Source: a virus. From it: 53,000 bases of DNA. This document shows positions 1,309-32,049 of the stretch, piece by piece. Positions within the stretch are counted from its first letter, which is position 1, and each line of letters opens with the position of its first letter. The stretch spans positions 1 through 53,000 of IMG/VR virus record IMGVR_UViG_3300023176_007840. One strand, 5' to 3'. The position numbers were made by a program, and so were the translations under genes. The notes beneath the pieces are model-generated. The model had not been told where the DNA came from and searched no databases. It saw only the letters and a list, made by a program, of their open reading frames with translations.

Positions 1309-1310
1309 AT

Positions 1311-1318
1311 ACTATTTA
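1311..1318 (+). promoter_or_regulatory. ACTATTTA element upstream of the PhoH gene
   Basis: ACTATTTA lies 26 bases (from its C) before the GTG start at 1338. The same octamer occurs at comparable distances before the starts at 21574 and 49669. Candidate promoter or regulatory element; function not shown. Confidence 0.3.
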
Positions 1319-1337
1319 AAGGAAGGAGATAAACCAC

Positions 1338-2648: not shown

Positions 2649-2657
2649 GAGGTAAAA

Positions 2658-3005: not shown

Positions 3006-3009
3006 AATA

Positions 3010-4857: not shown

Positions 4858-4858
4858 A

Positions 4859-12127: not shown

Positions 12128-12128
12128 A

Positions 12129-13100: not shown

Positions 13101-13945
13101 AAAAAAGACTTTGTATATTACAAGTTACTCCAAGAAATCCAAATAAACAACACAAAAAATGGTTCTCTAACGACAGCTGTGATTTTTATTTTGTCACACA
13201 TGATTATGAAAATAGTAAAGCTTTAAAGTTTTGTCCAAATACAGTATGGTCAGAAACTAGAAACACACTTGTTGAGTTAGTGCCAAAAAAATACGATTAT
13301 TATGGTTTTGTTGATCATGATTATATACTGACAAGCAGAACAAACCTGGATCCATGCGAACAAATCATAGAAGATTTAGAGTGGAATCCAGCGATTCTTA
13401 CGTATTACCCAGGAAGCGGATTAATTACGCCCTTTGCAACTGATTTAGACTACCTAAATAGCAAGGAGAGATCTTGCATGCCCTTTGCACACGCAGGTTT
13501 TAAAATAGTACACCATAGCCTTTTAGATTGGTTTTTTCCTTTATATACAAAACATCGGGTCGATATAGATGCTTGTCATATGTTTAATATTCAAGAGATT
13601 CCTTTTTTAAAAAATGTTATTTGTAGTCACAAGATGGTTTATAGTAATGGCGTTTCTGGAGATGGTATATATAACAAAAATGAAGCTTTTGCAAAACATA
13701 AAATGGATGAAATGTGGAGAGAAGTTTCATTATATTACAAAAAAATAAACACACTAAAACTAAGTAACTATGATTTAAATGATTCTTTAAGTATTAAAAA
13801 GTTTTATGTTGATCTTTTTAAAAAAAATAATATTTTAATTCAAAAAAGCAAAAATAACGTAAATTATTTAGATATTAATAAAATTTCTAAATTTTTTGAT
13901 TTGAATAGTGAATGGTTTGCTTCCCACATAAAAGAAGTGAAATGA
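13097..13945 (+). CDS. Putative glycosyltransferase-like protein (282 aa)
   Basis: Not confidently recognised. The N-terminal 200 residues look like a GT-A fold: LCILQVTPRNPN at the start and a central YYGFVDHDYILTS (about 67-79) whose DHD could be the metal-binding DxD. A C-terminal AT-rich, Lys/Asn-rich tail (200-282) follows. AAGGAATT precedes the ATG and there is a 4-base overlap with gmd. Its place among sugar genes supports a glycosyltransferase, but the evidence is contextual. Confidence 0.5.
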   Translation: MKKRLCILQVTPRNPNKQHKKWFSNDSCDFYFVTHDYENSKALKFCPNTVWSETRNTLVELVPKKYDYYGFVDHDYILTSRTNLDPCEQIIEDLEWNPAILTYYPGSGLITPFATDLDYLNSKERSCMPFAHAGFKIVHHSLLDWFFPLYTKHRVDIDACHMFNIQEIPFLKNVICSHKMVYSNGVSGDGIYNKNEAFAKHKMDEMWREVSLYYKKINTLKLSNYDLNDSLSIKKFYVDLFKKNNILIQKSKNNVNYLDINKISKFFDLNSEWFASHIKEVK

Positions 13946-14583
13946 TAATTTTTGTTCCTATAAAAGAAATATCACAAAGAGTACCAAACAAGAACTTTAG
14001 AATGTTTGGTAATGAACCTCTTTACAAGCACACATTGTTGAAGTTAAAAAACCACAATGTTTTTGTTGATACAGATAGTAAAAGACTCATAGAGCAGATA
14101 AATAATGACGCTAGATTGAAGCATGTACATGCTTACCAAAGAGACCAATTGTTGAAAGGACACCATGTCTCTGTTTGTGATTTAATAAAAAACTTTATTA
14201 TTAAGAAAGAAATCAAGGAAGCCATAGCGCAAATCCATGTTACTAGTCCGTTCTTAAAAGTAGAAACATTAGAGAATGCTTTTTTGAATATAGCTCAATA
14301 TGATTCTGTGGTTTCTTGTAATACTTACAACTCTAGATTTTGGAGAAAAGAGCAGTATGGTTTTTGCCCAGTCAACCATAACCCACTAAAAATGGAACAA
14401 ACACAAGATTTGCCCAAGCTTTACGAAGAGAACTCTTCTTTTTACATATTTCAACCAGAAGTAATAATCTCAACTGGCAATAGAATAGGTGCAAATCCTT
14501 TATTTTACCCGCTGACAACACCAGAGAATCTAGATATTGATACTGAGGAAGATTGGAAAATAGTTTTGAAGGAGTTAAAATGA
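13942..14583 (+). CDS. CMP-sugar synthetase-like cytidylyltransferase (NeuA-like)
   Basis: A 213-residue nucleotidyltransferase. Seen: MIIFVPIKEISQRVPNKNFR, close to the IPARGGSKRxPxKN signature of acylneuraminate/KDO cytidylyltransferases, though the glycines of the loop are replaced; VFVDTDSKRLIEQ; and AIAQIHVTSPFLKVETLENA, like QPTSPxRxxxxxxxA. A CMP-activated acidic sugar, such as a nonulosonate, is the expected product. No sialic-acid synthase (NeuB) is in the window. ATG at 13942 was chosen over 13912 because the protein's first beta strand starts there and it overlaps the upstream stop. Confidence 0.7.
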   Translation: MIIFVPIKEISQRVPNKNFRMFGNEPLYKHTLLKLKNHNVFVDTDSKRLIEQINNDARLKHVHAYQRDQLLKGHHVSVCDLIKNFIIKKEIKEAIAQIHVTSPFLKVETLENAFLNIAQYDSVVSCNTYNSRFWRKEQYGFCPVNHNPLKMEQTQDLPKLYEENSSFYIFQPEVIISTGNRIGANPLFYPLTTPENLDIDTEEDWKIVLKELK

Positions 14584-15530
14584 AAAACATAAAGGTTTTT
14601 ATCGTAACCTATAAAAGGTCTGAAGTTTTTAATCAAACGTTGGATAAACTATTCAATGGTACTGACTTTAATTTAATAAAAAACACAGAAGTCATTGTTA
14701 TTAACAACCATTCAGAGTTTTCTCTGGATGATGAATTTAAAGATAGAGTCAAAGTTTTACACAATATGACTAGACCCGATTGGGATGTAGGAAACTTAGC
14801 TAGAAATTGGAATGAGTGTTTGATACACGGATTTAAAGATTTAAATAACCCTGATTCTAAAATTGTTGTAACAATGCAAAATGATATAGTTTTGGATAAA
14901 AATTGGGCAACAAACTTATTAAAACTGCACCAAAAATATACATTCGTCACAGGTATTTTAGGAGACAATATAGTCAGTTACAGACCAGAGGCTGTTAAAA
15001 AAATAGGAATGTGGGATGAAAGGTTTCCTTGTCCTTCTCATAAAGAAGCTGATTATTTTTTAAGAGCTTTAATATACAATAAAGAACACTCTATAATCTG
15101 TGATAGAATACACAACAGGCTTTTAAACTCTCATGATTATCTCCCTCTTGATACTTCAACTTACAGAGGTGGAGATACAGAATGGTGTAATGAATCAAAG
15201 ACAGCAGACGATCCATTGGAAGCTTGGTACCAAGCAACGCAAATTTTTTATTGGAAATGGAAAGATACCTGGAAAGAACAGCCAAACTATTTTGGTTGGA
15301 TTAATGGATGGACAAAAGAATTTGTCGACAACCCGCCAAAACCATCCAGTGCTGTTAACTTTTCTTTATATCCATATTTTGAAAAAAACATTAATTTAAA
15401 AGGAAAAAATGTTGTTGGATGGAGAGACGAAGATTTATGGTTTGATTGTGAAGACTTTGATAAAAGAATCAACAAGACAGGAACCATAAATGAACATCCT
15501 TTTAAAAAAGGAGAAAGGTTTAGAAAGTGA
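14580..15530 (+). CDS. Family 2-like glycosyltransferase (GT-A)
   Basis: A 316-residue GT-A enzyme. Seen: KVFIVTYKRSEVFNQTLDKL (4-23), the GT2 start; EVIVINNHS; NLARNWNECLIHGF; and VTMQNDIVL (about 98-106), where QND takes the place of the DxD metal site. The C-terminal part is rich in Trp and charged residues. GAAGGAGTTAAA precedes the ATG at 14580; an upstream in-frame ATG at 14553 would overlap the previous gene further and adds no domain. Donor and acceptor unknown. Confidence 0.75.
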   Translation: MKNIKVFIVTYKRSEVFNQTLDKLFNGTDFNLIKNTEVIVINNHSEFSLDDEFKDRVKVLHNMTRPDWDVGNLARNWNECLIHGFKDLNNPDSKIVVTMQNDIVLDKNWATNLLKLHQKYTFVTGILGDNIVSYRPEAVKKIGMWDERFPCPSHKEADYFLRALIYNKEHSIICDRIHNRLLNSHDYLPLDTSTYRGGDTEWCNESKTADDPLEAWYQATQIFYWKWKDTWKEQPNYFGWINGWTKEFVDNPPKPSSAVNFSLYPYFEKNINLKGKNVVGWRDEDLWFDCEDFDKRINKTGTINEHPFKKGERFRK

Positions 15531-16894
15531 TAAAATTAATAGTTTTTGATTTAGATGGTGTCCTTGTCGACGCCCGAGAAATACATTATGAAGCACTTAA
15601 TGCTGCTTTAAGAGAAATTGGTGAAGAGTACGTCATCAAAAGACAGGAACATCTATCTTTATATGATGGACTTTCAACAACAAAGAAGCTAAACATGCTT
15701 ACGGAAAATAAAGGCTTGCCTGTGAGCTTACATGAAAAAGTTTGGAAGCTGAAACAAGAAAAAACTTTGGACATTATTAATCAGTTCACACCAGATGAAA
15801 GAATCTGTGGTATTTTAAAAAGGCTTAAGTCTGAGGGCTATACGATTGCGTGCGCCACAAACTCCATTCGCACTACAGCAAAATTACAATTAATAAGAAA
15901 AGGTTTTTTTGAACACATTGATTTTCTTTATTCAAATCAAGATGTACAAAGACCAAAACCAAGTTCTGAAATATATATGCGCTGTATGTTAAAAGCCGGT
16001 GTTGATCCTCATGAAACAGTTATTGTAGAAGATTCTCACCATGGTAGAAAAGCAGCTATAAATAGCGGAGGGCATTTATGCGCTGTAAGAAATAACTCAG
16101 AAGTAACATACAAGAAGATTAAAGAAATAATTGATTCAAAAACAGCCTTAGAAGATATAAGACCGAAATGGCAAGGAGGAAAAATGAATGTATTAATTCC
16201 AATGGCTGGTGCAGGCTCCAGATTCCAGCAAGCCGGCTATACTTTTCCAAAACCTTTAATCGAAGTAAACGGAAAGCCGATGATTCAACTAGTTGTTGAA
16301 AATTTAAATATCGATGCTACTCATATATTTATTGTACAGAAAGAGCACTATGAAAAATATAATTTAAATTATTTATTAAATTTAGTTTCACCAGGTTGTA
16401 AAATTATTCAAGTTGATGGCATGACAGAAGGAGCTGCTTGTACAACTCTTCTAGCAAAAGAATTAATTAATAATGATGATCCACTAGTGTTTGCAAATTC
16501 AGATCAATTTTTAGATTGGGACAGTAATGAATTCATGTATTCTATGGAGGCAGAAGAAGTCGATGGCGGCATGTTAACTTTTACCGCAACACACCCAAAG
16601 TGGAGTTTTGCGAAGACAAATGAAGATGGTTTTGTTACAGAAGTTGCTGAAAAGAAGCCAATAAGCAACGTTGCCACTGCAGGGATTTATTATTGGAAGC
16701 ATGGCAAAGATTACGTCAAATATGCTGAACAGATGATTGAAAAAAATATTAGATTTAATAATGAGTTTTATGTCTGTCCAGTTTTTAACCAAGCGATTGA
16801 AGATGGAAAAAAAATCAAAACATTTCATTTTGATGGAATGTGGGGCATTGGAACACCAGAAGATTTAAAGACTTTCCTTGAGAACCATAAATGA
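15527..16894 (+). CDS. HAD phosphatase-sugar nucleotidyltransferase fusion
   Basis: A 455-residue two-domain protein. Residues 1-215 are a HAD hydrolase of the beta-phosphoglucomutase type: FDLDGVLVDA with nucleophile D8 and D10, the ATNS motif near 109, the Lys in RPKPSSE and the acidic EDSHHG. Residues 220-455 are a sugar-1-phosphate nucleotidyltransferase: MNVLIPMAGAGSRFQQAGY with the glycine-rich GAGSRF and FPKPL, then FANSDQFLDW for metal binding. The start is GTG in a GTGA overlap. An internal AAGGAGG at 16173-16179 and in-frame ATG at 16184 fall exactly at the domain border, so the second domain may also be made alone. Which sugar is activated is not known. Confidence 0.8.
   Translation: MIKLIVFDLDGVLVDAREIHYEALNAALREIGEEYVIKRQEHLSLYDGLSTTKKLNMLTENKGLPVSLHEKVWKLKQEKTLDIINQFTPDERICGILKRLKSEGYTIACATNSIRTTAKLQLIRKGFFEHIDFLYSNQDVQRPKPSSEIYMRCMLKAGVDPHETVIVEDSHHGRKAAINSGGHLCAVRNNSEVTYKKIKEIIDSKTALEDIRPKWQGGKMNVLIPMAGAGSRFQQAGYTFPKPLIEVNGKPMIQLVVENLNIDATHIFIVQKEHYEKYNLNYLLNLVSPGCKIIQVDGMTEGAACTTLLAKELINNDDPLVFANSDQFLDWDSNEFMYSMEAEEVDGGMLTFTATHPKWSFAKTNEDGFVTEVAEKKPISNVATAGIYYWKHGKDYVKYAEQMIEKNIRFNNEFYVCPVFNQAIEDGKKIKTFHFDGMWGIGTPEDLKTFLENHK
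16173..16186 (+). promoter_or_regulatory. Internal ribosome binding site and start within the fusion gene
   Basis: AAGGAGG (16173-16179) sits 4 bases before an in-frame ATG (16184-16186) that opens the nucleotidyltransferase domain (MNVLIPMAG). This is as good a start as many real ones here and suggests a second, shorter product. Confidence 0.5.
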
Positions 16895-17337
16895 TTTTTA
16901 TTTCACACAGAGGAAATCTAAATGGATCAAATCCAATATTAGAAAATAAGCCGGAATATGTTGACAAAGCATTATATAGAGGTTATGATGTTGAGATAGA
17001 TGTCTGGAAAAAGAATGGTGCTTGGTACTTAGGTCATGATGCTCCACAATATAGAATAAACCAGGATTTTTTTTTGAAAAATAAACTTTGGTGTCATGCC
17101 AAAAATCTTGAAGCCTTGGAGGGCTTGTTGATATTGGGGGTGCACTGTTTTTGGCATCAAGAAGATGATTACACAATTACTAGTCGTGGAGTAATCTGGG
17201 CTTATCCAGGAAAAGAGCTGAATAAAAACGCTATCTGTGTCTTACCAGAGTCTCTTGGGGTGACAAAAAGTGTTTCCGACTGTAGAGGCATATGTTCGGA
17301 CTATATAGAAAATTATAGAGAAAAAAATGAATTTTAA
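16891..17337 (+). CDS. GDPD/PLC-like phosphodiesterase-fold protein (148 aa)
   Basis: A 148-residue protein with a short glycerophosphodiester phosphodiesterase-like pattern: ISHRGN (4-9), YDVEIDVW with the E-x-D metal ligands (about 32-39), and YLGHDAP with the second His. True GDPDs are about 250 residues, so this is a truncated barrel. Proteins of this shape occur in phage and capsule gene clusters with unclear function. ATGA overlap with the fusion gene, 11-base overlap with the FkbM gene. Confidence 0.6.
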   Translation: MIFISHRGNLNGSNPILENKPEYVDKALYRGYDVEIDVWKKNGAWYLGHDAPQYRINQDFFLKNKLWCHAKNLEALEGLLILGVHCFWHQEDDYTITSRGVIWAYPGKELNKNAICVLPESLGVTKSVSDCRGICSDYIENYREKNEF

Positions 17338-18010
17338 TTTTAAATGTAACGTGCTAAACCAAGAAAAATATTATGGAAATTACGTTATACCGGATCAAAT
17401 TGATAGAAAGGTGTGCATTGACCTTGGGTGTAATGTGGGTTTTTTTGTAATGGATAATTTTAAAAATTTTGAAAATCTATATGCCATAGATGCAAGCTAT
17501 CAGAATTTTGTTACAACTTTAAGAAAAGTTTTGTATGAAAATCTTAAAAACAATACAGCGACCAATGTTGCTTGTTTTAATTTAGCTTGTTCAAAAAACA
17601 ATGGACAGATAATAAAAATTTACAAACACGATAATAATGGAAACTCAGTTAGCCCAATGACTATTACTGATATGTTCAAAAAACAATATCCACAATGGCA
17701 AGAAGAACAAGAAACATACCACAATGTTTTTACAATCTCACTGGAAGGGCTATATGAATTCTTTAATATTAAATATATTGATTATTTAAAAATAGATATA
17801 GAGGGTGCTGAATATGATTTTCTTTTAGAAAAAGATTTGTCCAAAATTGGATGTCTCGCTTTGGAGATTCATGGTACTTTAGGACAAAAAATGAAAAACA
17901 AAATAAAAAAACATATAGAAAAATATTTTGATATATTTCATATTGAATATGACCTCCCTGCACCTGGACATTCCGTAATTACATATCTAAATAAAAGTTT
18001 TAAATCATGA
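17327..18010 (+). CDS. FkbM-family methyltransferase
   Basis: A 227-residue SAM methyltransferase of the FkbM family. Seen: VCIDLGCNVGFFV (29-41, motif I), LYAIDASYQNF (motif II acidic residue), and YIDYLKIDIEGAEYDFL (about 146-162), the family's diagnostic DxLKIDIEGxE segment. FkbM enzymes O-methylate sugars or other hydroxyls. It sits between the GDPD-like and aldolase genes. The ribosome binding site is weak, so translation is probably coupled to the previous gene. Confidence 0.85.
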   Translation: MNFNFKCNVLNQEKYYGNYVIPDQIDRKVCIDLGCNVGFFVMDNFKNFENLYAIDASYQNFVTTLRKVLYENLKNNTATNVACFNLACSKNNGQIIKIYKHDNNGNSVSPMTITDMFKKQYPQWQEEQETYHNVFTISLEGLYEFFNIKYIDYLKIDIEGAEYDFLLEKDLSKIGCLALEIHGTLGQKMKNKIKKHIEKYFDIFHIEYDLPAPGHSVITYLNKSFKS

Positions 18011-18684
18011 TCTTATCTTGGCAACAAATACCATCACCCTTGATTTCTGAGATTCTATGTCATCAGTTTGATGGAGTTGTGCTTGATACAGAGCATGGTT
18101 GTTATAATAATGAAACTTTGTATTCTTGTATTCAAGTTATCAAATGTTCAGGAAAAAAATGTTTTGTTCGCTTGACTGAAGTATCAAAGACAATGATTCG
18201 CTATTGTCTAGATGCCGGGGTAGATGGTCTTATTTTTTCAACAATAGAGACAGAAGAGCAGTGTAGGCAAATTTTAGAATTTAGTTGTTATTCTCCTAGA
18301 GGAGGGCGTGGCTTAGGCTTGGTTAGGCAAAACTTATGGGGGGAGAAACCTTTGATTTCAAAAGATCCCATTTTGATACCTCAAATAGAAACAAAAAAAA
18401 GTGTTGAAAATTTAGAGCAAATAATAAAATTTAATTTTGACTATTATCTTATTGGACCATATGATTTATCACTTAGTTTAGAAGCACCAGGACAATTTAA
18501 TAATCCTAATTTTTTACTTTACATTGATAAAATTAATGCTATAATACCTGAAGATAAAAGAGCAGTTCACATACCAAAAGACGTTAATCAACAAATTAAA
18601 AAATATAAAAATTATGGATTAAAATGCTTAGGTATGGATACAGTTGCAATTATCGAATACAATAAAGGTATAATAAATGCTTAA
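18007..18684 (+). CDS. HpcH/HpaI-type aldolase
   Basis: A 225-residue protein like the class II 2-keto-3-deoxy acid aldolases (RhmA, GarL, HpaI). Seen: FDGVVLDTEHGCYNN (20-34), the FDxxxxDxEHG family motif; RLTEVSKTMIRYCLDAGVDGLIF (56-78); and SPRGGRGLG (97-105), a match to the conserved arginine loop; IPQIETK has the metal-binding Glu. Such enzymes cleave or form keto-deoxy sugar acids from pyruvate and an aldehyde. In a sugar island it may make or supply an unusual keto sugar. ATGA overlap upstream; 8-base overlap downstream. Confidence 0.8.
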   Translation: MILSWQQIPSPLISEILCHQFDGVVLDTEHGCYNNETLYSCIQVIKCSGKKCFVRLTEVSKTMIRYCLDAGVDGLIFSTIETEEQCRQILEFSCYSPRGGRGLGLVRQNLWGEKPLISKDPILIPQIETKKSVENLEQIIKFNFDYYLIGPYDLSLSLEAPGQFNNPNFLLYIDKINAIIPEDKRAVHIPKDVNQQIKKYKNYGLKCLGMDTVAIIEYNKGIINA

Positions 18685-19654
18685 TTTTGAAAACATTGGA
18701 GAAAAATTTGTACAAGTTATCCACACCAAAGAGTGGGATGCATTACAAGAAAAATTCAATAACTGCAATGATATCTATGTCTTAGGACATGGAGGCAATC
18801 TTGCGGTTGCTGATCACGCTGCGGTCGACATGACTAGGTTATCAAACGGTACCAAGAACGCAATGTGCCCTGGTTCTGGTGTTGTTGCAACATCCCTTAT
18901 CAACGATACGTCTTTTGAAGAATGGATGGTTCACTGGCTTTCTAGTAGAACTTCAACAAGAACTAAAACACAAATGAAGAAAAGTTTAGTACTTGGAATC
19001 TCTTCGTCCGGAAAGTCTATTGATATTTTAAAAGCATTGCAATGGGCTCAAGAACATGGGATGCAAATTGCTATGATATCTTCGAAAGATATTGACATTG
19101 AAATAAAAAATCTAACAAAAGTAATTCTTGGCGCTGAGTATTATCACACAGCTGAGGTGTTAACACTTCTTCTTACTTACCAGTTAACTCATGGGGCCGG
19201 CAGTGTTTGTCCCCCGATCGGGAAAAACACACCAGAAGAATTAGAAAAGCTTAATTGGCGTGGCGATAAAATTAGAGAGCATTCTTATCCAGATGAAAAA
19301 ATCAATGTAGGTATCGATTTTGACGGCGTTATTCACAAATGTTCAAAAGGATATTATGACGGAACAATTTATGATGACCCAGTTGATGGTGTCCATGAAG
19401 CTTTAGAAAAACTCTCATCGCAGTATACTATCATTGTGCACACCTGTAAAGCCAGAGCAGACCGAGGCTTGGTAAATGGAAAAACCGGCGTTGAATTAGT
19501 CTGGGAATGGCTGAAGAATCATGATTTAGCAAAATTTATCAATAAAGTAACTGCAGAAAAACCAAGAGCTGCATTTTATATTGATGATAAAGCAATTAAT
19601 TTTAAGAACTGGAATGAGTGTCTTGATACTCTTAGATCAAAAGAAAAAATTTAA
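18677..19654 (+). CDS. SIS-domain isomerase fused to a HAD-like domain
   Basis: A 325-residue fusion. Residues 1-190 are an SIS domain of the GmhA (sedoheptulose-7-phosphate isomerase) type: YVLGHGGNLAVADH (34-47) and LGISSSGKS (106-114), like GNGGSAADAxH and GISTSGxS. Residues 208-325 are a short HAD-like domain: VGIDFDGVIH with D214 and D216, VHTCKAR, and FYIDDKAI with D303 and D304. In bacteria the isomerase GmhA and the phosphatase GmhB of the heptose pathway are separate; here they may be joined. An HldE-C-like gene follows closely. The specific sugar is inference. Confidence 0.75.
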   Translation: MLNFENIGEKFVQVIHTKEWDALQEKFNNCNDIYVLGHGGNLAVADHAAVDMTRLSNGTKNAMCPGSGVVATSLINDTSFEEWMVHWLSSRTSTRTKTQMKKSLVLGISSSGKSIDILKALQWAQEHGMQIAMISSKDIDIEIKNLTKVILGAEYYHTAEVLTLLLTYQLTHGAGSVCPPIGKNTPEELEKLNWRGDKIREHSYPDEKINVGIDFDGVIHKCSKGYYDGTIYDDPVDGVHEALEKLSSQYTIIVHTCKARADRGLVNGKTGVELVWEWLKNHDLAKFINKVTAEKPRAAFYIDDKAINFKNWNECLDTLRSKEKI

Positions 19655-20535: not shown

Positions 20536-20921
20536 TGATTTATGGCATTATAACAGTTTCTGTACTACTTAATGTAATTTTAACTTGGTATAGCCGCCGC
20601 CTTGTAACAGACCTTTCAGACCTTTCACTAGAAGTCGAGGAAGTGATTACAGACCTTAAACTTTATCATCGCCACGTTGAACAAGTATACCAGCTTGAAA
20701 CCTTTTATGGAGATGAAACCTTACGTGCCTTGCTAGAGCACTCAAAGGACGTCTCAGAGAGAGTTGGAGACTTTACAACCCTGTTTAGCAAGTTAGAGGA
20801 AGACGAGCTTATAGGTACCCTAGAGGAGCAAATAGATGACAGAGAAGGAGAGGAGGAAGAGCAAGTATCCAAAGAAAAAAAACATGTATTTTACGCAGGT
20901 ACACGAAGACGCAATTCTTGA
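20535..20921 (+). CDS. Small membrane-anchored coiled-coil protein
   Basis: A 128-residue protein with one N-terminal hydrophobic segment (IYGIITVSVLLNVILTW, 2-18), then RR and a helical, acidic region (25-110) likely to form a coiled coil, ending in a basic tail. It would be anchored in the inner membrane with the rest in the cytosol. Unrecognised. Its last 86 bases overlap the sigma factor gene in another frame. Confidence 0.65.
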   Translation: MIYGIITVSVLLNVILTWYSRRLVTDLSDLSLEVEEVITDLKLYHRHVEQVYQLETFYGDETLRALLEHSKDVSERVGDFTTLFSKLEEDELIGTLEEQIDDREGEEEEQVSKEKKHVFYAGTRRRNS

Positions 20922-21540
20922 GTACTGTAAATCAAAATCAAAAGCTAGAAGAGAAGAGTTATACGTAACACTAATCCAACCTGCTTTTGACGAGCTGGTT
21001 GATAAGATTGTTTATACGTACAAGTTTAATTCACTTCCAAATTGCGACATTCTAAAAAAAGATTGTAAAGTTTTTTTGGTAACAATCTTAGAAAAGTTTG
21101 ATGTTGAAAAAGGCCATAAAGCTTTTACTTATTTTTCAGTGATCACAAAAAATTGGTTTATTGCCGAGACCAAAAAAAGAAAAAAGAAACTTGAAAAAGA
21201 AGTTGCCTTAGATCTTCCGGATACAGTTCTAGATGAAAGGCTTATTGTGCGAAATACTTATTTTCAAGAACGCACAAAAGCAGAGTTTATTGAAGTACTC
21301 CACGAAGAAATAGAGTGGTGGAAAGAAGAAACAACCAGTTCTCAAGATAGAAAAATCTTAGAAGCAGTTGAAGTTTTATTTGAGTCAGTAGAACAAATTG
21401 AAATTTTCAACAAAAAAGCTGTATATGTTTATCTGCGGGAAATTACCGGCTTTAGCACAAAACAAATAACTTCTTCTCTAACAAAAGTAAGAAAAAAGTA
21501 TCGGAACTTAAGAGCCGAGTGGGACAGCGGAGAAATTTAA
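20836..21540 (+). CDS. Late-transcription sigma factor, T4 gp55-like
   Basis: A 234-residue protein resembling T4 gp55-type sigma factors. Seen: a basic N-terminus then NMYFTQVHEDAILEYC; IQPAFDELVDKIVYTYKF (47-64), the helix typical of this family; FDVEKGHKAFTYFSVITKNWFI (89-110), like the sigma region 2 stretch FxxxKGxxAxxYFxxITxN; and a C-terminal helix-turn-helix-like region (205-228). It would direct host RNA polymerase to phage late promoters, fitting its place just before the virion genes. A second ATG at 20884 is possible; 20836 is preferred because the basic leader resembles related proteins. Confidence 0.8.
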   Translation: MTEKERRKSKYPKKKNMYFTQVHEDAILEYCKSKSKARREELYVTLIQPAFDELVDKIVYTYKFNSLPNCDILKKDCKVFLVTILEKFDVEKGHKAFTYFSVITKNWFIAETKKRKKKLEKEVALDLPDTVLDERLIVRNTYFQERTKAEFIEVLHEEIEWWKEETTSSQDRKILEAVEVLFESVEQIEIFNKKAVYVYLREITGFSTKQITSSLTKVRKKYRNLRAEWDSGEI

Positions 21541-21573: not shown

Positions 21574-23091
21574 ATGGCAAATCGCACAATAAGACCGATA
21601 CTATACGAAAGGTTTGGAACATATAACAACTTAAGATCAAATCCATACTCAGACTCTGAAAAAATCTTAGATGTGAGAAGCGGAGTATTGGATCCGTATA
21701 CTCAAATAGTTCAGAGTGCTTTGCAAAACTCTTATACTGTTGACTCCTTATCTGTGCATGGAAACACATTCAGAGCTAGGGTGTTGGGAGTTATAAAAGG
21801 AAGGCCAGCTAGGCACCTTTATCCGGAGTTATACGCCAATTCAAGAGTAACCCCAGATCAGATTCCTGAATATTTTATATTTTCTTTAAGGGATGAAACA
21901 GACCAATTTGCGCCAGACCCTTTAAGATATGCAGGATCAGTGCAAAGCTACGTGAACATGATTGGTTTGCAAGGTAGAGCAATATCAGAAAAGCCCGCTA
22001 ATGAAACAATAGATGCTTTTGGTCGTGGTGACATTGTTGAGGTATATAAACCAGAACAAAACTCATGGAACGGCGCTGTAGTTAGAAAAGTTGTTGTAAG
22101 AAATAACTTTGAAAATTTTCTTATTGGATCCAACGACATCGCTGCAGAGCTTTTTGGTGGCTCTGCAGGTCAACCGTTCAACAATGGCAGTGGCCAGCCC
22201 AATACAGACTCTTTCACCCCCAGGGTCGCTACCGCTGCGGACGTAGAAGCGCCCAACCGTCTAGGCACGCAAGCAGATTGGGAAGTGTTTAGCCCTGGAG
22301 TTGTCTACCCACCCGGATCCCAACAATTAGTGGATTTGTTCACCGAAGCGGCCATACAGGAAGGCTTGTCCACGGCTTGGGCTCGTCTTCCTGGACTAAC
22401 AGGGGCCAGCAGGGATATCACCGGCGGTGGCTTAGTTTCACGTGAATCTGCTGGCGTCGTTGGCCGATTAAACTATGAATTTGAGAATGTAAATGATCCA
22501 AAATTTAACTTTCCTGAAGCATGGAATGACGGCAAGAACCCTGCCAATATAGAATACGCCATCCGACAGTGGATCCAGAGTGTACCGCCAGCAAGCTATA
22601 TAGATGGCGATGAGACTCAGGGTGTACTCCCACCACAGGGAGTTAATTCGACAGCTATAGGATTAGGACAACTGCTTTCTAGCACTGGCTATAATCGCAT
22701 GCCGAATAACTATGGCGGCTATGGCATACCAATAGCAGAAGCTCGTGGTATGTTAAGATATATCTATGACCGCTATGGACACCCTAATTCTGCCTACTCG
22801 TTTCACAATTTCCCCCCTCGCTACGGCGAACGTGTATATTATATTGGAAACCCTGGTTTTTCCCATACCCACCCCGACAACAAGATCGTTGTGCGGGATG
22901 ACGACGGCAATTGGGTGATCCAAGATACTGGCGAAGTAGTCCCTGGCTACGACTTTATTCTCGACCAAGCCGATCCGCCCAACCGGGTCCGGACCGCCGA
23001 CTTTTTCAGAGGCGCCCGTCTAGGCCAGATAACGTCAGCAGGGTACGACGAATACGGTCGGCCGGAAGTTAAAGCGCACGAAGGATACTAA
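21574..23091 (+). CDS. Baseplate/tail protein with transglycosylase-like module
   Basis: A 505-residue virion protein. Residues 1-195 look like a gp5-type OB-fold start (TFRARVLGVIKGRPA near 65-79). Residues about 250-412 look like a lytic transglycosylase: SRESAG with candidate catalytic E291, STAIGLGQLLSSTGY (359-373), and MLRYIYDRYGHPNSAYSFH (393-411), close to SLT patterns (AxGLGQ, YIxxRYGxPxxA). It would cut peptidoglycan during injection. The DNA from about 22150 on is clearly GC-richer than before, so the C-terminal part may be acquired. A 9-bp hairpin (22142-22168) marks the border. Confidence 0.65.
   Translation: MANRTIRPILYERFGTYNNLRSNPYSDSEKILDVRSGVLDPYTQIVQSALQNSYTVDSLSVHGNTFRARVLGVIKGRPARHLYPELYANSRVTPDQIPEYFIFSLRDETDQFAPDPLRYAGSVQSYVNMIGLQGRAISEKPANETIDAFGRGDIVEVYKPEQNSWNGAVVRKVVVRNNFENFLIGSNDIAAELFGGSAGQPFNNGSGQPNTDSFTPRVATAADVEAPNRLGTQADWEVFSPGVVYPPGSQQLVDLFTEAAIQEGLSTAWARLPGLTGASRDITGGGLVSRESAGVVGRLNYEFENVNDPKFNFPEAWNDGKNPANIEYAIRQWIQSVPPASYIDGDETQGVLPPQGVNSTAIGLGQLLSSTGYNRMPNNYGGYGIPIAEARGMLRYIYDRYGHPNSAYSFHNFPPRYGERVYYIGNPGFSHTHPDNKIVVRDDDGNWVIQDTGEVVPGYDFILDQADPPNRVRTADFFRGARLGQITSAGYDEYGRPEVKAHEGY
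22142..22168 (+). other. 9-bp hairpin at a composition border
   Basis: CTGCAGAGC (22142-22150) pairs perfectly with GCTCTGCAG (22160-22168), with a 9-base loop. It lies where the gene changes from AT-rich to GC-richer sequence. It may be chance, or a trace of the junction. Confidence 0.35.
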
Positions 23092-23382
23092 ATGAAAAAC
23101 TTAGATGAAACCCTATCAAGCGCTCTCGACAACATTGAGGAAGACAGAGCAACAACAAAAGAGCTTCTCCAAGATTTAATGAAATACCTAGGAGCGGCCG
23201 AAGAACGACACAGAGAAGTTGGCCCTGTTGCTGCTAAGTATGTTGAGACCTTGCAAAGATCCAATGAACAGTTAGTAAAGATTGCTGCTTTAATGCAAAA
23301 ACAAAAAACTTCATCTTTTGAGTTTTCATCATCAGATAAAGATCAGTTATACGACATTATAAACGATAAAGAAGAAGAATAA
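23092..23382 (+). CDS. Small coiled-coil protein (96 aa)
   Basis: A 96-residue, mostly helical, acidic protein with no recognised domain (heptad-like spacing across about 5-70). It starts directly after the stop of the transglycosylase-like gene with AAGGA as ribosome binding site and shares one base with the next start (TAATG). In the virion block it may be a minor tail or assembly protein; that is inference. Confidence 0.65.
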   Translation: MKNLDETLSSALDNIEEDRATTKELLQDLMKYLGAAEERHREVGPVAAKYVETLQRSNEQLVKIAALMQKQKTSSFEFSSSDKDQLYDIINDKEEE

Positions 23383-24284
23383 TGCCATTAATAGAAAAAC
23401 TAAATAAAAACAAATCTATTTCCAGAGAAGCCAACAAAGAGATTGAAAGAAAAACCTCTGGGGGTAACAGCACAGGTTCAGGCATTGGATGCTCAGAAAA
23501 ATTTGAGCCTTTACCAGAGTTTATTTCTGCAAAGTGCGAAAAAGTAATCTCAAATGCAAACTCTTACATTGTTTTAGGAAGGGATCGCCCAGGAGACCGC
23601 CTAACCGGTTATGGCGGCATTGGAGCTACGAGTTCCCATTCTATTGATTTAGTTGTTGGTCGTAGAGCACCGGGTGCGCCAGAAGACGAAAAGGTTTTTG
23701 TCGATCCTAATTTTATTACAGACGCTGCCAGGATTTATATTGCTGAAAAAACAGACGTAGATCAAAACTTTAAAATTACCAGCAACAACTCTCCAGATGC
23801 TATTGGGCGCTCAGCCGTCGCTTTAAAAGCAGACGCCATCAGAATAATAGCAGACGACGCTGGAATAAAGCTTGTAACAAAAGTCAATAACAGAAACTCC
23901 AATGGAAAACTAATCAATAGGTCTCTTGGAGTAGATCTAATAGGTGGAAATGATGACTCGGATCTACAGCCAATGGTAAAGGGAGAAAACTTAGTTGAGT
24001 TCCTAAATAGGCTTATAAAACAAATCAGCAATACGAACGGCCTTGTGATGGAAATGTCCAAGGCGATGCTAATTTATGAAGCCGGCATCTTAGCAGCGCT
24101 AGGGGTGCCTTGGCCAGGAAATGGTACTGTTGCAACCGTCCCCACTGTGCTCAAGTCCCTAGAAGATACAAAAATTATCTTAAAAGGCATATCACAAAAA
24201 ATAAGCTTGACGTCAGACACGGTCAACTATTTAACTAGCATTGGCTATAAAGACATACTTTCTAGTTATCATAGAGTAAACTAA
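23382..24284 (+). CDS. Virion-associated protein (300 aa), unknown
   Basis: A 300-residue protein. A conserved-looking segment SYIVLGRDRPGDRLTGYGGIG followed by IDLVVGRR lies near 62-94, and a beta-rich middle contains DAARIYIAEKTDVDQNF. The C-terminal 90 residues are helical. It sits between the tail lysozyme-like gene and a giant gene, so a baseplate hub or spike role is plausible. Family not assigned. Confidence 0.55.
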   Translation: MPLIEKLNKNKSISREANKEIERKTSGGNSTGSGIGCSEKFEPLPEFISAKCEKVISNANSYIVLGRDRPGDRLTGYGGIGATSSHSIDLVVGRRAPGAPEDEKVFVDPNFITDAARIYIAEKTDVDQNFKITSNNSPDAIGRSAVALKADAIRIIADDAGIKLVTKVNNRNSNGKLINRSLGVDLIGGNDDSDLQPMVKGENLVEFLNRLIKQISNTNGLVMEMSKAMLIYEAGILAALGVPWPGNGTVATVPTVLKSLEDTKIILKGISQKISLTSDTVNYLTSIGYKDILSSYHRVN

Positions 24285-27200
24285 TGATTTTTGAAGAATT
24301 AATACTAAATGAAGTTAGCGAATTAGAAACGCCTAATCCTGGAGGTTTATCCTCAGTTGCAGCAATCTATGTAGAAACTAGATTCAGCATGCAGGACTCA
24401 GGAGGAATCAACTTACCTTCTTTAAGGACTAGTCTAAAAGCAGAAGCCGTTAACATTTTTTCTTTGTATTACGCAAGCCTCGGAAAGCCGCCGACCTTCT
24501 TTATAGATAACACAGTTAACGGAACTGCAATAACGTCAGAGGGGGAAACAATCACATTAGAAAGAGTTGAGTTCATAAATCTAGGCGAAGAAGAATGTGA
24601 AGATGTTGTATTTAAAAAAGTTTTCTTTATACCATTAAACTTACTAAGCCCCCCTGCTGGCGAAGACTTTACAATTCCTAGTATATTTCCTAGCCGTGAT
24701 TTACCGACAACTGCCCTATTAAAGATCTGCAACTACAGAGATTTTAAAGACAAAGCTAAATTCATACAAACGTTTATGAAGATTAACTTTCTAGCGTTAC
24801 AAAGGCCAACAAATCGTAGCATAGTAAAGGGAATCAATTTTAGAAAGTTCTCAACCAAAAAGAAGCAAATAACTAAGTTTATAGACTTTTTAGATGATGT
24901 TGTCCCAAATAAACCAAGCAAATTTGGTGAAAGTATAATCATACACTTTGCAGAAAACTTTCAGACCGTATCTAAGATCGAGTATCTAAACGAAAATGTA
25001 AGTAACGAAACACAACTAGTTTGGCAACAATCAAAAGAAGAATTTGAGGTCAGGAAATATAAAGCTTTTAATGATGCCCGAGTAAACTTTTATCTTTATA
25101 ACTTTGAATCAATTTATCCAGATCTATTTGCGACAACTTTTAGAGGGATAAACATAAAGTTTGACAACCTTGTAAGAAGAAACTTTATAGCGCCAAATGT
25201 AGAAATCGTACAAAATGATTGTTTGGCCTCTGCCAACTCCCGCCAGAACGCATCCGCTGCTGATGTTACAAAAAGACTTAGACAAAGTTTATCAAACGTA
25301 TACGCTAAAGAGGCAAGGTCTCTTCTAAGTAACAACCCCTTTAAGACCGCTGAAGATCTTATAGAAGAAAGTGGCTTTCTAGAAAGTAAAGATATTGCGG
25401 CCGATGTGAAGCGAACTTTGAGTAAAGAATTTATCCAGGCCGGTCACTCAATAGCGGACGAGGTGTCAGACTTTTTCGAACAACTTCAGAAGGCCGGTGA
25501 CTTTCTTAGCACCGATCAAGATTCAAAAAAGCTCTCAAAGTTTGGCCAGTTTGCAAACTCTATAGAATGGCAGCAGATCCTAGCAATTGCGGCCGCTAGC
25601 GTCGCCTCAAGATACGGTATCGATGAGATCTTAGATGAAAGCTTTATCAAGAAACAGATGGCTGAGCGCATTTCTAAGTTTTTCAAAGATCCAAAAACTA
25701 TAAACGCTTTAATGTCAGGGCTTCCAACTTCCGCTCTGCAGAGGGCTGCTTTATTTTTTGCAACTATCGACTTAGCCAACTCGGTAGGTAGCGGAGTTTC
25801 GATAGAAGAAAGAAGACTCCGAAGACTGAACAACTTGCTTAGTGAGCGTGCAGGACTACTAGATAAAATACAAAAAGGAGTAGCAGAAGAAGGAGCAACA
25901 ATCCCGACTCTTCGGGGGGAGCAAGGAAGACTAGAAAGGCTAGAGGCTAGGATCGAAAGAGCAAAAGAAAGGCTAAACAGGCCAACTAGTTTAGCTGGAC
26001 TTCTGGCAGAACTCACCGTTGAACTGGATGAAGAAGATAAAGACGAAGAATATATTGGTGATTTGCAGGCTACAATTGAAGCGGAGCAAGCTAGGTTCGG
26101 TTTGGATTTAGATAGCCAATCTGCAGAAGAGGAAGAACCTTTCCTTGCAAGACAATTCTTTGGTATTGATTTAGACGAATCCACCACCTCTGAAGACGAG
26201 CTTGACGAAGTAAAACCTGGAGCTGGTAATTCACGCAAACCCCCAGCTGTTTCTCTGAATTCTACCAAAAAAGAACAAAGGGAAAGACTAGTCAACATAG
26301 CAACGGGCGGAGTGTCTGGTGAGTTTACAGCCGAAACAAAAAACGAACTAATCGATTTGATTATTGGTTTGTCAAACTGCGACCGTCAAAATAACGCTGA
26401 GGTTTATACAGAGTTTATAATGTTCTTGGTCGATGAACTAGGTGCACCAATCTTAGAATACTTTGATGAGTGGTCTGAATGGTTAAATGCTTGGGATGTG
26501 AAAAATTTAGATTTTTGTAACTTACCAGATCTAAACTTGCCAAAATTTAAGTTATTCCCCCTAAACATTAGATTGCCAGATATATCAATGCCTGACATTT
26601 TTGGCTTCATTTTAGGATCGATTCTATCAATTCTGTATGCCCTCTTGCTAAGGTTGATCAGGGCATTGGTTCAGTTCTTGTTGTCACTGATACCTGACTT
26701 TATTTTTGATTTTGAGCCCTGCGAGTTTGCAAACGCCTTGCGTGATTTTGGCCAAGTTCTTGGCGGCGCTATCTGTGCTGGTATAAATGGCGTTAATCTG
26801 CCGGCCGTTGCTGCCTGTAGTGTTCTAACACCGAGAATAGGTAATCAAAGAAACAATCGTGACTTGCTCAACTTTTTTAAAGATGCTTGCGGAAAAGGTA
26901 TTTTACCTGGACCCGATCTAGCACGCCTACTTGATGGTGATGCTAATGAAGAAACCTTCCAAAGAGCAGATGTGTATTTCAAAGCAATTAATCCCGACTT
27001 GGCATCTGAAATAAAGCAAAACCCAAGTATACTTTCAGATGCCGGCTCAGCAATGGGTAGTATTATTGGAATAGGTGACTTGCTTGACACGTTAGATGAT
27101 TTCACACCCAGGTTGCCGGGCTTGAGTGCAAACGGCTTTGTTGACAATTTAGATTTATGTTCAGATCCTAATGTTTCTGACTTGATCGATCAGCTGTGCA

Positions 27201-29689
27201 CAGAGCCAAACCCAGCACTAAGAGAGGAGTTAGAAAGAATCTTGCAGCAACAGAGAGAAGCAGATAAAGACGATGCTGCAAAGATCTTTAGATACCTCAC
27301 AGACCCAGAAAGCCTTGCAAGAGAAATAGAAGACCAACTTCCAAACCAAGCTCACCCTTCATTGGTGATCCCGCAGATGGCAGCTGATGGGCTTTTTAAC
27401 GAACTCCCGGTAATCAAGAACACGCCAAGATTCGCTCTAAACAGAGATCAGGAAACCCTAGGAGAATTTCATGAAGATAACATAAAAGCATCACTAGGAA
27501 ACTTAGACGCATGTATTACAGCGTACGCTACGTCCCTTTTGGAAAGTGCGAGGAGATACGAGGATATAATATCAACCACTGACGCTGATGGGGATGTGGA
27601 AGAGGGCGGTGATGATGAAGTTAGCCTGATCAATATAATAGAAATAATAGATAAGGCATTTGCAAATAATTTATTTTATCTAGACGAAATGCCAGAAGAG
27701 GCAAAGGAGGAAGCATACAGAATTATAGAAGACCCAGACAACCCAGAGATCAACGAAAGTAGCAAAAAAAGCTTTGATATAGGCATAAAGTTTTATGAAC
27801 AGCAAGTAAATACCCCTCTTCTTAATATAATAGGGTCAGATACGTTTGAAAGCTCTTCTCTTTTTGGACTAATTGGCAGCTACACCGTGGCCGATGGCGG
27901 CCCGTTAAGTGTGAGCATGTTCGAACAAGGGCTTTTGGTCAAACAAGTTTTGGATAAGGTTTCTTTCAATGAAGAGGTTGACTCCGATGAACTTGCCGGG
28001 CAAATGAAGGCGACGGGTAAAAGTATAGCTGCTGCCTCTCTAAAAAACAAATTGGAAAATTCCGGTATTGACTTAGACGAAGGTGAGAATATTGAACTTT
28101 TAGGCGTGGATACGACGCAAGAGACTGGCGTGGGAGACGCCTCAAGTCTTCTACCATCTTCGCAGCTAGAAGACGTAATGGAAGATTATCTGAATGGTGC
28201 TTTAAAACAAGAGAACACTTATAAAAGGTTCATCAGGGAACTTCCGGAATACTCTCAGCTTTTATTGGTAAAAACAGATAATGAGATTGTATCGATAAAC
28301 GAGAACATAAAAACAATCTTTAAGTGCATTATTTTAGAAGACGCCCATCTAAGATTTGCGGTTTTGAACACATCAGGAAACATCTTTTCGACTAATAACT
28401 TCTCAACTGCAATTTACAATCGATCAAGTTTAGCACAGAAAATAAAAGCAAGAATCAGTGGACTATTTTCTGATTTTGAGGTTAATTATCTTAATAATAA
28501 AATCTATGGTTGGAATGCCATCTCTTATTATGTATACGAAATAGCAAAAATAACCGGCCAACTATCTTCTCTAAGTAACTCATTAGGACGCCGTGCCACG
28601 CCACAGGATCTAATGTTCGAGTTGATAGAGAATGCTGTTGAGGATGTTAATAACTCGTTTGTTACAGACTTATCCGCAGAGAACCAGCTTCTTTATTCGA
28701 CCATTGAAGGAAGCAGCCGATCTTCAATTATTATTAATTTTGAAACGCCGAAACTTTTAGAAGGCCGAGATCGGTTTCTACAATTAAACAACTTCCTTGA
28801 AAGGTCTGCCACTCCTGATGGCGCTTCGCAGCCCTTCCTAACTTCAAATATGTGTTTTGCCGTCACCCTCAAAGCAGGTGCGTTGGCTGATTCCCTTGAT
28901 ACACTAACACTTGCTGACATTACTTCAGAAGAGCAGCGCAGCGGCACAAACTCGTCAGGCTTTGTCGTCTCCTCCAGCGCCGCAGGCAAGGGCGCTTTAC
29001 AGACTGCGGTTCTTGAATCTCTTAAGGCCCGCCAAACCGTTCTTTTAAGCTATGATGATGTTTTTTTCGAGGACGACCGCTTAAATTTATCTTTGATGCG
29101 TAGGCTGCAGGAATATGTTGGATTCGATCAGTCCTTGAATGATTTTGTATTTGATAATTTTGATGTTAAAATAAAATATAGAGTGTTTGTCTCTTATGCA
29201 ACAAGACGCCTAGAAGAGAGCCGAGGTACTGATCTCGCAAATTCTTATATTGGTCACGATTCAGAAGTTAAGTCTTTAGGCCTATACAAAGATCAAAAGA
29301 TAAGTACTATGTTTGTGAGGAGCTCCGCTTCGAGGGATACATCGGGGGCTACTTTTATAATGACTGAGCTTTGTACGTTTGAGAAAGAAATTGAGGAGCT
29401 CCCAGACAATAACCTACAACTTAATCAAAATAACCGATTTATTTCTAAATTAATGCAAGCTAGCAACACCTCGCCACTAGCTAACGAGTTTAAAGCAAAC
29501 GCTTCTATTAATATTTTCTTATCTTGTATGCTACCATTCCCAAACATTATAAATGAAGCAACTAGTTATTCTGTAGAACAGGCAAGTTCAGCTGCAGATG
29601 AAGAAGTTAAAGATATAATTTTTAAACCTGTAACGATGCAAAACAGGATCTGCACAAGAGTAAGCAAACACTTCTTAAAAAATGTCTAA
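24284..29689 (+). CDS. Giant virion protein (1801 aa) with hydrophobic segment
   Basis: An 1801-residue protein of unknown family, upstream of gp25 and gp6 genes, so probably part of the baseplate or tail. Seen: a charged N-terminal half; a long coiled coil at about 505-640 (RRLRRLNNLLSERAGLLDK and a Glu/Arg-rich stretch); a marked hydrophobic segment at about 770-805 (FGFILGSILSILYALLLRLI) followed by FLLSLIPDFIF; and a C-terminal 900 residues rich in acidic and Asn residues. The coiled coil plus hydrophobic stretch recall tape-measure proteins, but position and sequence are not decisive. It could also form a membrane-contacting part of the baseplate. Confidence 0.6.
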   Translation: MIFEELILNEVSELETPNPGGLSSVAAIYVETRFSMQDSGGINLPSLRTSLKAEAVNIFSLYYASLGKPPTFFIDNTVNGTAITSEGETITLERVEFINLGEEECEDVVFKKVFFIPLNLLSPPAGEDFTIPSIFPSRDLPTTALLKICNYRDFKDKAKFIQTFMKINFLALQRPTNRSIVKGINFRKFSTKKKQITKFIDFLDDVVPNKPSKFGESIIIHFAENFQTVSKIEYLNENVSNETQLVWQQSKEEFEVRKYKAFNDARVNFYLYNFESIYPDLFATTFRGINIKFDNLVRRNFIAPNVEIVQNDCLASANSRQNASAADVTKRLRQSLSNVYAKEARSLLSNNPFKTAEDLIEESGFLESKDIAADVKRTLSKEFIQAGHSIADEVSDFFEQLQKAGDFLSTDQDSKKLSKFGQFANSIEWQQILAIAAASVASRYGIDEILDESFIKKQMAERISKFFKDPKTINALMSGLPTSALQRAALFFATIDLANSVGSGVSIEERRLRRLNNLLSERAGLLDKIQKGVAEEGATIPTLRGEQGRLERLEARIERAKERLNRPTSLAGLLAELTVELDEEDKDEEYIGDLQATIEAEQARFGLDLDSQSAEEEEPFLARQFFGIDLDESTTSEDELDEVKPGAGNSRKPPAVSLNSTKKEQRERLVNIATGGVSGEFTAETKNELIDLIIGLSNCDRQNNAEVYTEFIMFLVDELGAPILEYFDEWSEWLNAWDVKNLDFCNLPDLNLPKFKLFPLNIRLPDISMPDIFGFILGSILSILYALLLRLIRALVQFLLSLIPDFIFDFEPCEFANALRDFGQVLGGAICAGINGVNLPAVAACSVLTPRIGNQRNNRDLLNFFKDACGKGILPGPDLARLLDGDANEETFQRADVYFKAINPDLASEIKQNPSILSDAGSAMGSIIGIGDLLDTLDDFTPRLPGLSANGFVDNLDLCSDPNVSDLIDQLCTEPNPALREELERILQQQREADKDDAAKIFRYLTDPESLAREIEDQLPNQAHPSLVIPQMAADGLFNELPVIKNTPRFALNRDQETLGEFHEDNIKASLGNLDACITAYATSLLESARRYEDIISTTDADGDVEEGGDDEVSLINIIEIIDKAFANNLFYLDEMPEEAKEEAYRIIEDPDNPEINESSKKSFDIGIKFYEQQVNTPLLNIIGSDTFESSSLFGLIGSYTVADGGPLSVSMFEQGLLVKQVLDKVSFNEEVDSDELAGQMKATGKSIAAASLKNKLENSGIDLDEGENIELLGVDTTQETGVGDASSLLPSSQLEDVMEDYLNGALKQENTYKRFIRELPEYSQLLLVKTDNEIVSINENIKTIFKCIILEDAHLRFAVLNTSGNIFSTNNFSTAIYNRSSLAQKIKARISGLFSDFEVNYLNNKIYGWNAISYYVYEIAKITGQLSSLSNSLGRRATPQDLMFELIENAVEDVNNSFVTDLSAENQLLYSTIEGSSRSSIIINFETPKLLEGRDRFLQLNNFLERSATPDGASQPFLTSNMCFAVTLKAGALADSLDTLTLADITSEEQRSGTNSSGFVVSSSAAGKGALQTAVLESLKARQTVLLSYDDVFFEDDRLNLSLMRRLQEYVGFDQSLNDFVFDNFDVKIKYRVFVSYATRRLEESRGTDLANSYIGHDSEVKSLGLYKDQKISTMFVRSSASRDTSGATFIMTELCTFEKEIEELPDNNLQLNQNNRFISKLMQASNTSPLANEFKANASINIFLSCMLPFPNIINEATSYSVEQASSAADEEVKDIIFKPVTMQNRICTRVSKHFLKNV

Positions 29690-30234: not shown

Positions 30235-32049
30235 ATGCCAAAGGTTACAAGACCAGCGATACGTTATACATCAAGAGAGTTTGAAACAATCAAGCAGGAT
30301 TTGGTGTCTTTCATTAAAAGATATTATCCGGATACTTTCCAAGACTTCCAAGAGGCTGGCTTTGGCTCAATGATCCTTGACACCACTGCTTATGTTGGTG
30401 ACATTCTTTCTTTTTACTTAGATTACTCTGTTAATGAGTCCTTTTTGGATACAGCCGGTGAGTTTGAGAATATAATAAAGATCGCTAGGCAGATGGGCTA
30501 CCGCTACCAGCCAAACAAAACATCAACCGGCATTTGTTCGTTCTATGTTTTAGTGCCAGCAACAACCTCCAGCGACTTAGAAGGCGGCGCAGCACCAAAC
30601 TATAGCTATGCTCCCGTGTTATCAAGAGGGACTTCACTCAAAACATCTTCAGGGATAGCGTTCACGTTAGCAGTAGACGTTGACTTTTCCAACCTTAATA
30701 ACGAAGTCGTTGTGGCCGAAAGAGATGATGAAACAGGCCGACCCACACGATTCGCAATAAAAGCATTTGGCCGTGTTATTTCCGGAAAAACATCGGTCCT
30801 ACAAAGAACCATTGGAGAGTTTAAACCATTCCAGAAAGTCAGGTTAAACAATAACAACATTATTGAGATACTTTCTGTCTCTGACTCAAATAATAACGAA
30901 TACTTCCAAGTACCAAACTTAGCTCAGGACACAATTTATAGACAAGTGCCTAACAACGGCCCAGATAAAGCATTTGTAAAGTACCTCCTACAACCAAAAG
31001 CAACCCCGAGAAGGTTTGAGGTTCTTAGAGAACAGGGGGCGATTTATCTTAGATTTGGATACGGCTCAGAAGAAGAGGTCGAGAGTCAAGAAAAAACAAT
31101 CATACCAAGCAAGAAAACACTAGATTTATTTGGTAAAGAATATATTTCAGATACTTCATTTGATCCAAACGTTCTTCTAAAGAGTGGTAAGTTTGGAGTA
31201 TCTCCAGCAAACACGGTCTTAAACATAATCTACAGAGAGAACACCAATGCGAATGTCAACATTGCCGCCGGTGCCTTAAACGCAATTGCGAGACCTTTTT
31301 TTAAGTTTACTGATGCTGCAACCAACGACAGCTTAAAAACACAAGTAATAAACAGCTTAGAAGTTACCAATGAAGAACCTATTACTGGCGATCTGTCCCC
31401 GTTAACAACTAGTGACATAAAAGTTCTTGCTTCTAATTCTTTGTTTGCACAGAACAGAGCAGTAACGGCAGCCGACTATAAAGCCTTGATATCAGCAATG
31501 CCTTCTGGTCTCGGAGGAGTTAAGCAAGTTGCAGCTTATAAAGATTCTGCTAGTCTGAAAAATAACATAAACTTATTTATCTTGTCAGAGGATGATTCCG
31601 GAAAGCTTTCTGTACCTACCGACTCAATGTTTAATAATATCAAAGCATGGCTGACCAGATACAAACTAATAAACGATTCAGTTGACATCTTTTCTGCAAA
31701 AATCGTAAATGTTAAAATAGACTTTGTTGCTGTAGCCGAGGATGGCTATGACAGGGCATCCGTTTTAGCAAGAATCAAAAGAGATTTAGCAAGATACCTA
31801 CGACAAAATCCAAATCAAATAGGTGACCCAATTCACGTAACAAAGCTTACAAATGTTATTAATGAAACAGAAGGTGTTGCTGATGTAATACGTATTTTCC
31901 TGGAAAGAAAAACAGGAGTAGATTATTCCTCAACTGTATACAACTTAAATGCAAACTATTCATCAGATGGCAGGAAGATCTTTATACCAAAAAATGTTAT
32001 TTGGGAAGTTAAGTTTCCAAACCAAGACATCAATGGAGAGGTAAGATAG
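30235..32049 (+). CDS. Baseplate wedge protein, T4 gp6/J-like
   Basis: A 604-residue protein matching the T4 gp6 family (related to phage Mu/P2 baseplate J). Seen: RYTSREFETIKQDLVSFIKR (10-29) and DFQEAGFGSMILDTTAYVGD (42-61), the conserved N-terminal signature; NESFLDTAGEFENIIKIARQMGY; and a C-terminal part with VTAADYKALI (about 413-422), common to gp6/J proteins. It forms the inner baseplate ring that connects wedges. AGAGGAGAAAT lies before the ATG. Confidence 0.9.
   Translation: MPKVTRPAIRYTSREFETIKQDLVSFIKRYYPDTFQDFQEAGFGSMILDTTAYVGDILSFYLDYSVNESFLDTAGEFENIIKIARQMGYRYQPNKTSTGICSFYVLVPATTSSDLEGGAAPNYSYAPVLSRGTSLKTSSGIAFTLAVDVDFSNLNNEVVVAERDDETGRPTRFAIKAFGRVISGKTSVLQRTIGEFKPFQKVRLNNNNIIEILSVSDSNNNEYFQVPNLAQDTIYRQVPNNGPDKAFVKYLLQPKATPRRFEVLREQGAIYLRFGYGSEEEVESQEKTIIPSKKTLDLFGKEYISDTSFDPNVLLKSGKFGVSPANTVLNIIYRENTNANVNIAAGALNAIARPFFKFTDAATNDSLKTQVINSLEVTNEEPITGDLSPLTTSDIKVLASNSLFAQNRAVTAADYKALISAMPSGLGGVKQVAAYKDSASLKNNINLFILSEDDSGKLSVPTDSMFNNIKAWLTRYKLINDSVDIFSAKIVNVKIDFVAVAEDGYDRASVLARIKRDLARYLRQNPNQIGDPIHVTKLTNVINETEGVADVIRIFLERKTGVDYSSTVYNLNANYSSDGRKIFIPKNVIWEVKFPNQDINGEVR

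Follow-up and report, generated by a model that had tools for sequence, protein, structure and literature searches.

A probable phage baseplate hub protein with an SLT-type transglycosylase module, and exchange of its enzyme part within a phage family

Tail lysozymes, VgrG-like plug-in of enzymes and mosaic phage lysins are already known (PMC3004832, PMC4067218, PMC10684548). In the tail-associated lysozyme gp5 of T4, an N-terminal OB-like domain is fused to a peptidoglycan-cutting domain, and the gene lies in a baseplate neighbourhood (PMC3004832). The VgrG spikes of type VI secretion likewise join a gp5-like spike core to interchangeable C-terminal enzymes; their C-terminal effector domains are mentioned in PMC3004832, and their 'a la carte' delivery in PMC4067218. 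A survey of domain mosaicism found catalytic domains shuffled in host-contact proteins, namely phage baseplate proteins and endolysins, and noted lysozyme in baseplate spikes (PMC10684548); its text contains no 'hub', 'tail-associated' or 'SLT' case.

We analysed positions 1 to 53,000 of the IMG/VR virus record IMGVR_UViG_3300023176_007840 (53,000 nucleotides, hereafter the window), together with related loci (L-numbers below). The gene under study and its principal neighbours are as follows.

21574-23091, + strand: 505-aa ORF of two parts, an OB-like N-domain and then an SLT-type module
21574-22110, + strand: N-terminal hub domain, OB-like and gp5-type (residues 1-179; from alignment A9, a model and fold matches)
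22159-23091, + strand: SLT-type lytic transglycosylase module (residues 196-505; from hhalign against PF01464 actinophage proteins)
20836-21540, + strand: late sigma-like gene (phrog_234), the left neighbour, 90-97% identical in DNA within the clade
23092-23382, + strand: conserved right neighbour of 96 aa, its ATG being the right border of exchange
23382-24284, + strand: conserved neighbour of 300 aa (SDLQPM family), the marker for syntenic loci
30235-32049, + strand: baseplate wedge protein (phrog_219, Baseplate_J), which puts the cluster in the baseplate

The wedge/Baseplate_J protein, which isolates Mel-JY01 and immuto have in common by sequence, places the hub gene in a baseplate cluster. 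The proposed layout resembles that of T4 gp5, with three differences: the window protein has an SLT transglycosylase where T4 gp5 has a GH24 lysozyme, its enzyme part extends to the C-terminus, and sequence similarity between the two is undetectable. Inspection of residues 430-505 found none of the VXGXXXXX beta-helix needle repeats that are a feature of T4 gp5. Compared with VgrG, the window protein would be a phage entry tool, the enzymes seen in its family are almost all wall hydrolases, and its OB core comes without the gp27 part. Compared with the mosaicism survey (PMC10684548), a single syntenic gene here holds many enzyme families and includes a near-isogenic swap pair.

Several features of the neighbourhood were recorded in passing. 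The sigma-like gene begins within the preceding 128-aa gene (86-nt overlap, 20836-20921), an arrangement kept in L010/L011. The 300-aa gene is followed by one for an 1801-aa protein (24284-29689), and many syntenic loci have an ORF of about 1600-2000 aa there. A fibre-like 3062-aa ORF (33470-42658) has a Laminin_G_3 lectin-like stretch at residues 170-343. The block at 350-19654 holds phosphomannomutase-like, glycosyltransferase and methyltransferase genes; what lies upstream of the sigma factor varies from one syntenic locus to another, which suggests a variable, sugar-related cargo. The hub gene precedes the 96-aa gene in the window, L001, L003, L042 and L043 and follows it in the L014-L034 loci examined, so it has changed place relative to that gene.

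Residues 1 to about 180 of the window protein match L001, L003, L042 and the two L043 hub genes at E no worse than 2e-34, and match L041 over the last stretch of the domain only, because the L041 contig begins there. Alignment A9, with 38 sequences including 32 syntenic genes from other phages, showed the common pattern G.LN, G.VLRV, RIPE.H..LP.P and GDIV.VDF.N; homology of the window clade to this larger syntenic family rests on a weak profile link (E about 4e-4, single best 5e-5) together with gene position. An AlphaFold model of the domain built from A9 (pLDDT 73, pTM 0.64) has strands plus helices, and its top Foldseek match in the PDB was a P1 baseplate chain (prob 0.98, E 0.02, TM 0.29); the baseplates of Mu and E217, the puncturing protein Orf41 and numerous proteins with an OB fold also matched. 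Matches among BFVD viral models were annotated 'baseplate hub + tail lysozyme' or were gp5 OB-domain entries. These matches are weak but consistent, with TM-scores that are all low (0.26-0.47), and they suggest an OB-like fold for residues 1-180, akin to the OB domains of baseplate spikes and gp5, as the original prediction held for this part.

For the second part, the original prediction had named SLT-like motifs; the ORF, its coordinates and the motifs SRESAG, AIGLGQLL and YIYDRYGHPNSA are all as first described, and the core residues are invariant in L001.

22441-22449, + strand: RES motif (residues 290-292, invariant in L001), with candidate catalytic Glu E291 at 22444-22446
22654-22677, + strand: AIGLGQLL, SLT motif II (from the L001 comparison and profile alignment)
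22759-22809, + strand: YIYDRYGHP...YSFHN, third SLT stretch (from the L001 comparison, tblastn and profile alignment)

Searches with the window protein gave no significant match in Pfam, PHROG, PDB sequences or INPHARED proteins; in particular there was no PF01464 match above gathering score, and no match to Phage_lysozyme (GH24 T4-type), a family that was found in siblings L034 and L044. When residues 241-430 of the window protein plus L001 were compared by hhalign with four actinophage proteins confirmed as PF01464, the score was 52.9 (E 1.7e-7, Prob 93.8); the 153 sibling-module decoy segments, the top-scoring of which came from a muramidase module, stayed far lower at 24.6 or less, and the reversed core scored 12.9. 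The RES motif is present, and a GLGQLL-like motif II and GYGIP...EA..YI..RYG.P..A align. Matches by tblastn with the C-part were weak (best E 0.07) and nearly all to actinophage proteins, several of them annotated SLT/lytic transglycosylase or tape measure; NCBIfam AggPromo_Cterm (aggregation-promoting-factor C-terminal domain) matched residues 357-412 at E 4.9e-4, under cut-off. A full-length AlphaFold model from three sequences reached pLDDT 31, too low to show a fold, and was set aside. Judged by profile similarity, a lytic transglycosylase of the SLT type lies within residues 196-505, and the proposed identity of the second part stands. The module departs from PF01464 in lying under Pfam detection and in a long insertion, about 55 residues, that precedes motif II and sets RES and GLGQ about 70 residues apart instead of the roughly 16 in actinophage SLT; with the insert excised, the score exceeded that of the control by a small margin only. 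As catalytic Glu, E291 of the invariant RES motif is the most likely, with E347 a possible alternative in the window protein, an assignment that we infer because this spacing exceeds that of actinophage SLT. A search of IMG/VR with the module alone, for other contexts, found only the contig of L001 and its duplicate. The window protein and L001 share the same full-length layout (N-domain 65-68%, C-part 59% identity).

Other relatives differ at the same joint: L003, L041, L042 and L043 have different modules behind homologous N-domains. L003 shares 74% over residues 1-208 and then runs on for about 570 residues that are unrelated, the enzyme part of L041 is Amidase_2 by Pfam, and L043 has tandem hub genes, one with GH25 and the second with M15_3. 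The original prediction had made an identical domain layout in all relatives its refutation; layouts differ, and the exchange of the wall-cutting module that it proposed is borne out. Of two further module assignments, M15-type for L003 is a weak candidate, with a short HxxxxxxD-like match (E 0.002) and nothing more, and DUF2272-like for L042 was unsupported. The tandem genes of L043 (889-3786) have homologous N-domains that are 77% identical in DNA over 585 bp, followed by no match.

More loci were collected via the 300-aa neighbour, whose relatives are encoded on at least 569 IMG/VR stretches. Among 77 syntenic hub-position genes, 12 wall-hydrolase families were recognized by Pfam, where one gene may enter two families: VanY (20), Amidase_2 (14), M23 (7), Muramidase (4), M15_3 (3), M15_4 (3), phage lysozyme (2), M74 (2), CHAP (2), GH25 (1), GH19 (1) and phage tail lysozyme (1). 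Besides hydrolases there was a single GDSL and a single DUF2272 match. With so many enzyme families attached to one type of hub domain, these phages therefore appear to swap the wall-cutter and keep the socket, and the comparison of sequences confirms that this phage family exchanges the enzyme part freely behind the hub N-domain. Hub genes of 192-210 aa that lack an enzyme module also occur (L016 5404-5985, L056 5381-5968, L067 5375-5953 and L087 328-960).

The place of exchange could be narrowed with the following features.

22024-22110, + strand: conserved joint tract of 87 bp (residues 151-179, ending GDIVEVYKPEQNSWNGAVVRKVVVRNNF)
22111-22158, + strand: border/linker, the switch point to unrelated modules (from the blastn stop and the stop in the L043 paralogues)
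22142-22168, no strand assigned: 9-bp hairpin at the border (arms 22142-22150 and 22160-22168, 9-nt loop)

L001 and L003 are 95-98% identical in the DNA of their flanks (sigma, 96-aa and 300-aa genes) and 75% identical in that of the hub N-domain, and their modules, unequal in length, are unrelated; flanks being near-identical while N-domain and modules are not, the exchange between the L001 and L003 lineages is young relative to the neighbouring genes. Each arrangement is backed by a pair of records that come from separate datasets (L001/L002 and L003/L004), which makes assembly chimaeras unlikely. Informative sites disagree along the sequence: 145 of 188 in the flanks group L001 with L003, whereas 82 of 151 in hub codons 1-150 group the window with L003 (P = 9e-18). 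Codons 151-179 are back at backbone-level identity, with a three-way DNA identity of 0.93 against 0.56-0.67 in codons 1-150, and with 1 of 28 synonymous differences between L001 and L003 against 50 of 100 upstream (P = 2e-6). The N-domain thus has a history different from that of its flanks, except in the 87-bp tract before the border, and this tract would be the natural candidate for a recombination joint, the alternative being constraint on the tract. A search with the DNA pattern of the tract returned known contigs only. The blastn match between the window and L010 ends at 22110, and the L043 paralogues lose DNA similarity past 585 bp (codon 195); the joint, first put at the hairpin (22150), is instead at about 22110-22158, directly past the conserved tract.

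That hairpin exists, as the original prediction noted, but the window has 10 perfect stems of its kind, a number within the 2-11 that simulated sequence produces, and L010/L011 lack the hairpin. With a chance-level stem count and no conservation in these relatives it carries no weight, and a role as a recombination site is rejected. The predicted contrast in composition across the border is likewise real (residues 1-195: GC 0.390, GC3 0.303; residues 196-505: GC 0.519, GC3 0.481), with the best GC3 split at codon 185 (z=4.1), but is not unique: this split ranks second among the 25 window ORFs of at least 250 aa, after that of the 1062-aa ORF at 46392-49580, where GC3 falls near codon 280 in the window's strongest internal step (z=4.3). 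Because another ORF has the stronger split, composition by itself is insufficient as proof of a module swap. The original prediction had gone further, reading the contrast as the mark of a recent arrival of the SLT module in the window phage from a GC-richer source and conjecturing that the swap suited a new host. The GC3 step across the border is what such an arrival would leave, but L001 carries this module too, about 59% identical, and its contrast in GC is milder (0.50 v 0.42), L003 shows a composition contrast with an unrelated module, and the larger step elsewhere in the window again weighs against it; we regard a recent arrival as unlikely.

The opposite reading, that there was no exchange and the N- and C-parts diverged jointly, with L003 and others having diverged past recognition, would fit the shared layout and similar identities of the window protein and L001. 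It is refuted, and hardly credible to us, given the near-identical neighbours of L001 and L003 with unrelated modules of unequal length, the match of siblings to different Pfam families, and the conflicting site patterns. That the SLT-like module is a catalytically dead wall-binding or structural domain seems improbable: the wide RES-GLGQ spacing and the sibling genes without a module would suit such a domain, but the RES, GLGQLL and RYGHP motifs are invariant in two proteins 59% identical, and sibling modules are hydrolases. Several of these sibling modules bear the PHROG label 'endolysin', as expected if the product were a cell-lysis enzyme outside the virion, yet an N-domain precedes every module, the gene keeps the same conserved structural neighbourhood across the loci examined, and the fold search pointed to baseplate spikes, so that a lysis role is very improbable.

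From its domain anatomy, baseplate neighbourhood and SLT profile similarity, the product is very probably a hub/spike protein with an SLT transglycosylase, whose enzyme part is an exchangeable cassette in this phage family. We propose that it is the central baseplate hub/spike protein, presumably trimeric, of a contractile-tailed phage, that its OB-like N-domain docks in the baseplate and bears the C-terminal module, and that this module would cut peptidoglycan glycan strands at entry as the T4 gp5 lysozyme does. The cassette would begin just past the OB domain and extend as far as the stop codon. While the mosaicism is directly visible in the alignments, its likely route would be homologous recombination, with the conserved neighbours and the 87-bp tract as its sites. 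Tentatively, the hub gene may be a cassette slot, in which the near-invariant tract serves as the joint for trading complete wall hydrolases and the tandem copies of L043 represent an intermediate, or supply mixed trimers that cut two bond types. What is new is how broadly a single syntenic gene exchanges its enzyme, together with the near-isogenic pair, the tandem hub genes and the sharp joint.

The wall bond cut at phage entry is usually regarded as fixed per lineage. Here near-identical phages differ exactly in the predicted entry enzyme, and comparison of such natural sister phages could test its role in host range. The family also offers a ready-made collection of wall hydrolases, attached in nature to a single type of hub domain.
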